Shown here: piece after piece, positions 57,231 through 60,345 of the stretch
How positions within the stretch are numbered: position 1 is the stretch's first letter
Layout: each line of letters starts with the position of its first letter
Assembly (NCBI GenBank): GCA_947630625.1
Contig: CANRIL010000010.1
Span: 1 to 64,000 of the forward strand
DNA: 64,000 nt
Reading direction: 5' to 3'
DNA from: an uncultured Clostridia bacterium
GTDB lineage: Bacteria > Bacillota > Clostridia > Oscillospirales > CAG-272
The notes under the pieces: generated by a model
Databases searched by the model: none
What the model was told of the DNA's origin: nothing
What the model saw: only the letters and a program-made list of their open reading frames with translations
Position numbers and translations under genes: made by a program

Positions 57231-57271
57231 GGGGAGAGCTTTTCAACCGAAAAGCTCTCCCCCGTTTTTTT
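57231..57271 (+). terminator. Rho-independent terminator of pepF
   Basis: GGGGAGAGCTTTTC and GAAAAGCTCTCCCC form a perfect 14-bp stem with a four-base loop, followed by CGTTTTTTT. Confidence 0.95.
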
Positions 57272-57318: not shown

Positions 57319-58803
57319 TCAGAGGATTATGCAGATAAGCCCGCCGCTGCCTTCGTTGATGATCCTGCCGAGCGTGTCTGACAGCTTGGCGCGCGCATCC
57401 TCCGGCATATGTTCGAGCTTTGAATGCAGCCCGTCGTTTACAAGCTCATAAAGCGTCTTCCCGAACATATTTGACTGCCAGATAGCCTGACTGTCGTCCT
57501 CGAACTCGCGCATCAGGTAGCGCACCATTTCCTGAGACTGCTCTTCCGTACCGACGATAGGATTTATTTCCGTCTCGATAGTCGCCTTTATCATATGTAC
57601 GGAAGGCGCCGTCGCCCGCAGGCGCACGCCGTAACCGCCCTGCTGGCGGACAATTTCCGGCTCCGCAAGCGTCAGGTCTTCGACCTCAGGCATTACGATT
57701 CCGTACCCGCGCTCGTTTACGTCAGAAAGCGCCTCCGAAACCTTGTCGTACTCGCGCTTTACGGCTGCAAGCTCCGTCAGAAGCGCGATCAGTTCCTCCT
57801 CGTCGCGGATGTCAAATCCGGTCAGCTCGCCGATAGTGCGGTAGTAAACCTCGTCCGGCACCGCGACTGACAGCTCAGCGCGCCCCTGACCGAGGTCTGA
57901 ATCAAGATACCGAACCTCGGAAACGTATTCCTTTTCGCAGAGCCCCGTAAACGCGCCGCCGTCTATAACGTCGCCCATCTTCACGGTCTTTGACGCGCAT
58001 TCGCGCAGTCCGCCGACGAGCCCGGCGCGAAGCGGGTGATCTGCCGGGAGCGCGCGCAGCCATCCCGGCGCTTTGACGCTTATCTCGCGCACCGGAAATT
58101 CGTACAGCACGAGTTCGAGGATATGCGTGATGTCATCCGCGTTCATCGAAAGGCATGAGACGAGCGCGACGGGCGCGTGATATTTTTCCTCAAGCTCACC
58201 GGCGAGCGCCTGCGCCGCCTCTCCCTCCGGCTCGGCGGAATTGAGGATCACCGCAAACGGCTTCCCGATCTTGTGCATTTCCTCGGCAACGCGCGCCTCG
58301 GCCTCTACATAATCCTCGCGCGGGATGTCGCCGAAGCTTCCGTCCGTCGTCACGAGCATGCCTATTGTGGAGTGCTCGTTGATGACGCGGCGCGTCCCCA
58401 TCTCCGCCGCATCTGCAAACGGCATCGGCTCCGCCTGCCACGGCGTTGAAACCATCCTGACGCTGCCGTCCTCCGTGTCTCCGAGCGCGCCGGGAACAAG
58501 GTAGCCGACGCAGTCCACCATCCTCACGCGCAGATGAGATACGCCGCGCAGCGAGACTTCGACCGCCTCGTCCGGAATAAATTTCGGTTCCGTCGTCATG
58601 ACCGTGCGCCCTGCCGCCGACTGCGGCATTTCGTCGCGCGCACGCGTCCTGTCGTATTCGCCCTCGATATTCGGCATGACGAGCGCGTTCATAAACCGTT
58701 TTATGAACGTGCTCTTCCCCGTCCGTACCGGACCGACGACTCCGATATAGACATCGCCTCCGGTGCGCTCGGCAATGTCACGGTATATGTTTGTCTCCGT
58801 CAT
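57319..58803 (-). CDS. spoIVA: Stage IV sporulation protein A (coat-assembly ATPase)
   Basis: 494 residues matching SpoIVA over the full length. The TRAFAC-type P-loop GVVGPVRTGKST is at residues 21-32, then GRTVMTTEPKFIPDEAVEV, MVDCVGYLVPGALG and VTTDGSFGDIPREDYVEAE. The middle domain and the C-terminal assembly domain end in the conserved hydrophobic GLICIIL. SpoIVA polymerises on the forespore surface using ATP and is the base layer of the spore coat, recruited by SpoVM. The ATG is at 58803, with the ribosome-binding site GGGAGG inside an inverted repeat. Confidence 0.97.
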   Translation of the reverse strand: MTETNIYRDIAERTGGDVYIGVVGPVRTGKSTFIKRFMNALVMPNIEGEYDRTRARDEMPQSAAGRTVMTTEPKFIPDEAVEVSLRGVSHLRVRMVDCVGYLVPGALGDTEDGSVRMVSTPWQAEPMPFADAAEMGTRRVINEHSTIGMLVTTDGSFGDIPREDYVEAEARVAEEMHKIGKPFAVILNSAEPEGEAAQALAGELEEKYHAPVALVSCLSMNADDITHILELVLYEFPVREISVKAPGWLRALPADHPLRAGLVGGLRECASKTVKMGDVIDGGAFTGLCEKEYVSEVRYLDSDLGQGRAELSVAVPDEVYYRTIGELTGFDIRDEEELIALLTELAAVKREYDKVSEALSDVNERGYGIVMPEVEDLTLAEPEIVRQQGGYGVRLRATAPSVHMIKATIETEINPIVGTEEQSQEMVRYLMREFEDDSQAIWQSNMFGKTLYELVNDGLHSKLEHMPEDARAKLSDTLGRIINEGSGGLICIIL

Positions 58804-58811
58804 AAAAAAAT

Positions 58812-58864
58812 CCTCCCGTATAACAGCTTACGCTATTTATACGGGAGGCTCTTCATTTTTATGA
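58812..58864 (-). promoter_or_regulatory. SigE-like promoter of spoIVA nested in an inverted repeat
   Basis: On the minus strand TCATAAA (58864-58858), 14 bases, then CGTATAAAT (58843-58835) resembles a SigE promoter. The -10 lies in the left arm of a perfect 12-bp inverted repeat, CCTCCCGTATAA (58848-58837) with TTATACGGGAGG (58823-58812). The right arm contains the spoIVA ribosome-binding site and is followed by ATTTTTTTATG. A transcript begun at this promoter starts in the loop and leaves the ribosome-binding site free. A read-through transcript from the DUF362 gene would form the full hairpin, which with T7 also resembles a terminator. Confidence 0.6.
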
Positions 58865-58871
58865 CACCGGC

Positions 58872-59759
58872 TCAGAGCACGACGAGATCATATATGCGCG
58901 AACCTATGCCAAGGGAGGCTGCCGCCTCAACGGTGTGAATGCCGTTGCGGCTTTCGATGCGCTTTAAGAGATGTTCCTGTCCGGGATCGTCCGTCGCCTG
59001 ATATACGAGGTCAAGGCACGCCTGGTCGATCGCTACCGGGTCGGTCGAGGCGAGAATGCCGATATCCCTCATGCAGGGGTCTTCCGCCTCGGCGCAGCAG
59101 TCGCAGTCGACCGACATATTTTTCATAACGTTTATATATACCGCCCGGCCGTCAAACCTTCTGACGACAGAGAGCGCGGCGTCCGCCATTGATTCGAGGA
59201 ACTTGTCGTGATTTGCGCCCCAGAAATTGCCCTCCGGCCTGCCGGCGCCGTGTATGTTCTTCTTACCGTATGCGGACGCAATGCCGATCGAGAGCTGCTT
59301 GAGCGCGCCGCCGAAGCCGCCCATCGGGTGCCCCTTGAAATGCGACAGCACGAGCAGCGAATCGTAATTCGCCAGATTTTTGCCTACGTAGTTCTGTTTT
59401 ATAACGCGCCCGTCAGGGATCGGCAGTACGAGATCGGGTCCCTCGCCGTCGAGCAGATCGACCGGGAAACGACCTGACCAGCCGTGCTTTTCAAGCGTCT
59501 TCAAGTGCTTTTCCGTCGTGTCGCGCGCCCCGCCGTAAGCGGTGTTGCATTCGACGACGGCTCCGCCGTCCGCCTCGTTGAGCACGGCGTCGACCGTCGG
59601 CGCCCAGAAATCCGGGCGGAGGAAATTCTGATTTCCGACCTCCCCCGAATGCACCTTGACGGCGACCTTGCCGGTCAGCGGAACTCCGACCGCGCGGTAC
59701 AAATCAAGCACGCGCTCCGGCGTGATCTCCCGCGTAAAATAAACAGTTGCCTTTTCCAT
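58872..59759 (-). CDS. DUF362 domain protein
   Basis: 295 residues from the ATG at 59759 with GGGGGA ahead; an upstream ATG at 59837 is less likely. The DUF362 core is clear: VAVKVHSGEVGNQNFLRPDFWAPTVDAV, VVECNTAYGGARDTTEKHLKTLEKHGW, LVLSHFKGHPMGGFGGALKQLSIG and ILASTDPVAIDQACLDLVY. A Cys group (DCDCCAEAEDPC) may bind a metal or an iron-sulfur cluster. The family often carries ferredoxin domains and has unknown function. A hairpin with T7 right after the stop probably ends this transcript before spoIVA. Confidence 0.88.
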   Translation of the reverse strand: MEKATVYFTREITPERVLDLYRAVGVPLTGKVAVKVHSGEVGNQNFLRPDFWAPTVDAVLNEADGGAVVECNTAYGGARDTTEKHLKTLEKHGWSGRFPVDLLDGEGPDLVLPIPDGRVIKQNYVGKNLANYDSLLVLSHFKGHPMGGFGGALKQLSIGIASAYGKKNIHGAGRPEGNFWGANHDKFLESMADAALSVVRRFDGRAVYINVMKNMSVDCDCCAEAEDPCMRDIGILASTDPVAIDQACLDLVYQATDDPGQEHLLKRIESRNGIHTVEAAASLGIGSRIYDLVVL

Positions 59760-60345
59760 TTTTGTTCCCCCTTCAAGTTCTCCTGTTTTCTTTTTCGGCT
59801 TCCACAGTCTGAAGCTGAGTGTAAATCCGCGTCCCATAATATTATATCATACCTCCGATATCAAAAAATGTCGTCTCGTCCCCCGCCGCCGACAGGCGCG
59901 CGGCCAAAGTTTCAGTTTAGAGATTTGCGCACGAACGAAATAGAAGTACACGCCGCCGACGGGCACGCATCTAAAGTTTAAGGAAAAAAAGCGCCAAAGT
60001 TGAAAAAGAAAGCTCGCGCAAACCACCGCAAGCATGCGCGGCATGACTGCAAATCTGCCCGTCTTATTTATGTCTTCGGGAAATTCCAAGTTTATTTTAT
60101 CACCGCGCCCCCGCCGCGTCAACCCGAAAAACCGCATAATAAAATTATTTTCAAAAAGTTTCCGGAAAGGCGGCGCGGAGGACAAAACTTTTGAAGCTCT
60201 CTCCCCCGGCGTTTACTATTCTATTTCAATATCGACCTCAATAAATGACGGGCGGCTGTAAAACAGTTTTTGTCAATCAGAAAACTATCGCTCAAAGCGA
60301 TAATCCCAGAAGCCGTCATTTTCTTCAACGTCCGCGCAAACGGAA
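59760..60345. other. Intergenic region with spaced inverted repeat
   Basis: No gene is supported here. AAATGACGG (60243-60251) and CCGTCATTT (60313-60321) are perfect complements about 60 bases apart, and between them TATCGCT/AGCGATA (60286-60302) forms a 7-bp hairpin with a three-base loop; on the minus strand it is followed by GTTTTC and may be the terminator of the methyltransferase gene. The rest is of lower GC than the neighbouring genes. Confidence 0.5.

Follow-up and report, generated by a model that had tools for sequence, protein, structure and literature searches.

A candidate read-through lock within the SigE-like promoter of spoIVA in uncultured Clostridia

What might a perfect inverted repeat do when one of its arms lies in a predicted sporulation promoter and the other carries the ribosome-binding site of the gene behind it? 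The question is raised by the minus strand of the window, the whole 64-kb stretch of DNA analysed here, in which two 12-bp arms with a 13-nt loop sit in the 68-nt gap between the stop codon of a DUF362 gene and the ATG of spoIVA (Table 1). The arms, the loop and all the coordinates proposed in an earlier sequence-only reading proved correct when the minus strand was read again, and the TCATAAA 14 nt ahead of the -10 element, the GGGAGG in the right arm, the T7 and the ATG are all present. We consider it probable, at roughly 0.7, that this arrangement is a lock against read-through expression, with an anti-Shine-Dalgarno (anti-SD) sequence embedded in the spacer and -10 element of a SigE-like promoter.

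A repeat shared by a predicted promoter and a ribosome-binding site

The left arm consists of the end of the predicted promoter spacer and most of the SigE-like -10 element, all of whose bases except the last fall within the arm. On the other side of the loop, a single A at 58811 separates the right arm from the T7 tract. The exact repeat was found once in the 2.5-Mb genome, and the window holds six perfect inverted repeats with arms of at least 12 and loops of 3 to 20, compared with 0, 1 and 0 in three shuffles. The identification of spoIVA is firm (670 bits against the TIGR02836 cut-off of 460). The nearest relatives of the genome are uncultured Clostridia, and their isolate names (Lapin) suggest the rabbit gut. 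At the far end of the gene, positions 57231-57262 form a perfect 14-bp terminator-like hairpin with a T-run, between the end of a plus-strand gene that resembles oligoendopeptidase F, as judged from reading its sequence, and the end of spoIVA; it probably serves this convergent pair.

Table 1. Features of the spoIVA leader and the flanking genes
Feature	Position	Strand	Basis or remark
DUF362 gene	58872..59760	-	Open reading frame; PF04015, E 9.5e-48; start at 59760 picked by its SD; stop codon 58874-58872
SigE-like -35, TCATAAA	58858..58864	-	Relatives carry GTCATAAA or GCATATT
Promoter spacer, 14 nt	58844..58857	-	Final 5 nt (58844-58848, CCTCC) are the anti-SD
SigE-like -10, CGTATAAA	58836..58843	-	CATATAAT in congeners G006 and G009
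Left (5') arm, CCTCCCGTATAA	58837..58848	-	Inverted repeat
Loop, 13 nt	58824..58836	-	Read from sequence
Right (3') arm, TTATACGGGAGG	58812..58823	-	Holds the SD GGGAGG (58812-58817)
T7 tract between SD and ATG	58804..58810	-	Could serve as a terminator U-tract
spoIVA, 494 aa	57319..58803	-	TIGR02836, E 1.6e-201; three SpoIVA Pfam domains; ATG 58803-58801

The consensus -10 element of SigE promoters is CATACAAT. In TCATAAA-14-CGTATAAA the -35 element and the spacing fit the SigE pattern (a -35 with ATA, a spacer of 13-15 nt and a CATA-type -10), and the -10 element matches the consensus at only five of eight positions, with CG in place of CA. Congeners carry CATATAAT or CATATACA, which are CATA-type, at the same place. 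The spoIVA genes of B. subtilis (PMC517825) and C. difficile (PMC3789822) are SigE-dependent. From the position of the -10 element, transcription by SigE is predicted to start at about 58828 +/- 3, inside the loop. In some genera (leaders L048, L057, L060-L063, L065, L072, L098 and L155), a second form of the -35 element, GTTCTAAA-like with a 13-nt spacer, stands in place of GTCATAAA and its 14-nt spacer, and the kind of -10 element is unchanged.

RNA entering from upstream, for which the DUF362 gene on the same strand is the likely source, would contain both arms and fold into a hairpin of about -26 kcal/mol (-25.7 in the computed fold, z -6.9) that hides the spoIVA SD, and the U7 tract may halt a part of it. 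RNA made from the SigE-like promoter would start downstream of the left arm, could not form the hairpin and would be translated; SpoIVA would thereby be kept out of growing cells. In the predicted structures of the long RNA the SD is paired with the upstream arm, and its predicted openness is 0.001 in the read-through RNA and 0.48 in the RNA starting in the loop. Among 24 locked representatives from related genomes, the mean predicted openness was 0.085 in read-through RNA and 0.57 in short RNA, compared with 0.41 and 0.56, respectively, among 45 unlocked ones. These contrasts indicate that the predicted effect is that of a switch set by the promoter from which the RNA originates. A search with Rfam covariance models gave only a sub-threshold match, located elsewhere than the spoIVA leader.

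Co-change of the spacer and the SD among relatives

The sequence-only reading held that loss of the repeat in close relatives would refute such a lock, a test that the idea survives in the near congeners of the window genome. The repeat is identical to the last letter in G004 and G005 (93% protein identity). It is altered in G006 and G009 (CCTCTCATATAA or CCTCATATAA against TTATGCGGGAGG), where the pairing is kept at -12.9 and -11.1 kcal/mol. In G007 and G001 the anti-SD is shifted 5' in the spacer, and CCTCCCG directly after the -35 element pairs with CGGGAGG at -16.7 kcal/mol. Thus, the six nearest congeners retain the pairing, four of them with changed sequence, while it is weak or gone in the four that are most distant (71-73% protein identity).

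Beyond the genus, 214 distinct spoIVA leaders were collected, mostly from metagenome-assembled genomes, with promoters and starts assigned by simple in-house rules. Different letters pair in different leaders: CCTCCGCAT with ATGCGGAGG in L087 and L089, CTCCGCAT with ATGCGGAG in L069, CTCCGCC with GGCGGAG in L034, CCTCCGCA with TGCGGAGG in L035, and CCTCCCAT with GTGGGAGG in L051 and L096. The pairing was scored as the duplex energy between the SD region and a left window comprising the final 14 spacer nt and 4 nt of the -10 element, and in a swap test each leader's own spacer-SD pair was compared with spacers given the SDs of other leaders. In the first set of 50 representatives less than 70% alike, own pairs averaged -8.2 and swapped pairs -6.7 kcal/mol, a difference reached in 0 of 5000 permutations. 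With the statistic unchanged, 80 newly fetched leaders were reduced to 23 that were less than 70% alike, both mutually and to the earlier ones; this fresh set gave -8.6 for own and -6.6 kcal/mol for swapped pairs (p 0.0001), and z -6.3 against shuffled spacers. A swap test corrected for composition on 82 representatives was equally clear (0 of 10000). When the left window was slid along these 82 leaders, the pairing peaked at the spacer end and the -10 element, where 25 leaders reached -10 kcal/mol or lower compared with 2 in shuffles; a lesser rise was seen around the -35 element and none farther upstream.

With one leader per genus from 58 genera, the corrected z was about -7, with 0 of 1000 permutations as extreme in each of 100 draws; such draws lessen, and do not remove, the effect of shared ancestry among the leaders of one family. 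The covariation of the arms that the sequence-only reading had proposed to look for in related leaders is found, in that the leader's own SD beats swapped SDs across these genera, and of its interpretation the part that is supported is that the left-arm DNA is kept complementary to the SD, with the exception of the distant congeners described above. A strong spoIVA lock is present in 24 of the 58 genera, compared with 13 expected under swapping, so most genera manage without one. At a stricter identity cut of 62%, 12 leaders remained (p 0.036).

The signal could not be established for Clostridiaceae or for the phylum as a whole. Within Clostridiaceae alone the swap test gave p 0.20 despite a shuffle z of -2.8, and hence we claim no lock there. 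Of a phylum-wide sample of 39 leaders, six were usable after the SigE scan and three of these were strongly paired, too small a number to judge. The direction of the upstream gene, called by a noisy ORF caller, gave no clear separation (locks in 6 of 26 same-strand and 1 of 10 divergent cases). A genome-wide pattern, CTCCS..SGGAG..ATG, had 120 matches compared with 41 for the reversed pattern; many of these matches apparently lie within coding sequence, and the pattern was therefore dropped as evidence.

Alternative explanations and known systems

The most serious competitor, which we regard as unlikely, is that the hairpin serves the upstream gene as its intrinsic terminator, packed against spoIVA so closely that the 3' arm also supplies the spoIVA SD, and that hiding of the SD is a by-product. 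A GC-rich stem of -25.7 kcal/mol followed by A and U7 has the expected form, and a terminator scan of the 68-nt gap listed no other candidate; the scan had a loop limit of 8, so the hairpin itself, with its loop of 13, went unlisted. Of the 9 nt that follow the SD, at least five are T in 12 of 24 locked spoIVA leaders compared with 10 of 45 unlocked ones (p 0.03), and T-runs are also enriched in locked leaders of sigG (p 0.0008). However, the other 12 strongly locked spoIVA leaders have no T-run, G007 and G001 possess a distinct terminator-like hairpin upstream and yet retain the lock, and a terminator has no need of an SD or of a position in a promoter spacer. In view of the leaders without a T-run and of the separate hairpin in these two congeners, SD hiding is ranked first and termination second, and partial termination at the U7 tract remains likely for the spoIVA gene of the window. 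Considerably less probable is a C-rich spacer that serves as a promoter or repressor motif, reflecting a preference of SigE or an operator such as that of SpoIIID, with its complementarity to GGAGG incidental. Spacers do out-pair shuffles even against the SDs of other leaders, and spoIVA, yabPQ, ylbJ and yqfCD are all repressed by SpoIIID in B. subtilis (PMC517825). A motif of this kind fails to account for the advantage of the own SD over swapped ones after composition correction and in all genus-level draws, the anti-SD shifts within the spacer among congeners, and the signal at ylbJ and yqfC is weak (p 0.06 and 0.04).

A general hairpin at the ribosome-binding site that dampens every spoIVA transcript has a model in the small sigG hairpin of B. 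subtilis, which cuts translation 2-4 fold (PMC5942855) and likewise masks a sporulation gene's SD by base-pairing, but within the promoter's own transcript. At spoIVA the predicted spacer and -10 element supply the left arm, upstream of any plausible SigE start, and the short RNA cannot form the hairpin, which makes this explanation very improbable. Chance can be given almost no weight: about 13 of 58 genera would show strong pairs under swapping, and all the genus-level tests, the z of -6.9 of the hairpin and the pairing in the six nearest congeners, four with altered letters, stand against it. For the clade as a whole, the genus-level co-change makes a chance origin unlikely.

The principle behind a read-through lock is already known; it is established in phage T4 and has been proposed for sigG of B. 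subtilis. According to two T4 reports (PMC3014915, PMC2988022), the SDs of e, soc, 49 and I-TevI are hidden by a hairpin in early RNA, and late promoters located in the 5'-arm DNA of e and I-TevI yield RNA without that arm, with a 100-fold effect for lysozyme; segB and mobE of Aeh1 belong to the same kind of late-gene hairpin. Those systems concern phage genes and late phage promoters, and the passages describing them note no terminator tract, whereas the window holds a cellular sporulation gene. In B. subtilis, a large hairpin of at least 20 pairs at sigG (spoIIIG) has been proposed to keep transcripts that run in from spoIIGA-sigE from being translated; transcripts begun at sigG's own sporulation promoter cannot form it (PMC5942855, citing Masuda 1988 and Sun 1991). 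That gene encodes a sigma factor and has a forespore sigma F/G promoter, whereas spoIVA encodes a coat ATPase behind a mother-cell SigE-like promoter; its hairpin has 12 pairs and a U7 tract after it, and the spacer contributes part of the anti-SD. Searches of open papers for the hiding of an SD from read-through RNA at spoIVA or in sporulation found only the sigG report, and none for spoIVA or yabP.

Other sporulation genes and the meaning of a lock

Leaders of other sporulation genes were taken from 30 genomes chosen by a locked-looking spoIVA leader, a sample that is therefore not random; the swap test runs within each gene, and the choice of genomes does not bear on it directly. Own pairs were stronger than swapped pairs at sigG (-12.0 compared with -8.0, z -7.6) and at yabP (-12.5 compared with -9.9, z -5.4), and both genes surpass spoIVA in this respect. 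For spoIIIAA, a promoter-free test on 14 leaders gave z -2.8 (p 0.005), and the SigE-anchored test, with only seven leaders, gave no signal; starts of spoIIIAA and yabP were set from profile match positions. The signal was weak at yqfC (z -1.8) and ylbJ (z -1.6). In the same genomes recA gave none (z -0.5), and 155 background genes from the fetched stretches, one of them a spoIVA copy, had 8 strong pairs compared with 8.9 expected. Examples are ACCTCCAAACG with CGTTTGGAGGT in L404 and ATACTCCTGAC with GTCGGGAGTAT in L384 for sigG, and CTCCCGCATAT with ATATGCGGGAG in L277 and TCACCCTTTCGCA with TGCGAAAGGGTGA in L267 for yabP. By eye, the yabP and sigG leaders of the window's own genome show no SD lock. 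That the lock is a device of the whole regulon, with a co-evolving anti-SD in several sporulation promoters (spoIVA, yabP, sigG and perhaps spoIIIAA), is a tentative proposal to which we give slightly less than even odds.

Several features of these leaders were noted in passing. Very strong SD hairpins of sigG leaders in the range L383-L412 (e.g., L384, L389, L395, L400, L402 and L404) overlap a CAATACT-type -10 element; 16 reach -13 kcal/mol or lower, and several are followed by T-runs. They are a wide analogue of the read-through hairpin of B. subtilis sigG. Leaders of yabP in the range L263-L288 (e.g., L267, L275, L277, L283 and L284) have very strong locks of the SigE type, in several of which the right arm pairs with the -10 element as well (CGCATA with TATGCG). 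The leaders L293-L315 and L353-L372 show that a yqfC-like gene and ylbJ are divergently paired in many of the family's genomes, and in G130 their leaders share one region with CCTCC and GGAGG. On the minus strand of the window's own genome, L443 has CTCCGCATATAATGGGACAG...TATTTATGGGAGG before an ATG, about 50 nt before a 383-aa open reading frame that by eye resembles a cation efflux protein; it is possibly another SigE-type promoter with a lock.

If the spoIVA reading holds, what goes beyond the known cases is its recurrence at several sporulation genes and in many genera, which would turn a curiosity of T4 and sigG into a recurring and testable feature of sporulation promoters, and the sequence signature may aid the finding of such promoters in uncultured genomes. 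In compact genomes growth genes lie immediately upstream of sporulation genes, and RNA leaking through from them would cause growing cells to make spore proteins. A lock within the promoter itself would require no added factor, as each gene would itself check which promoter made its RNA. If the wider proposal is true, a broad group of uncultured Clostridia could translate such sporulation genes solely from transcripts made with the appropriate sporulation sigma factor.
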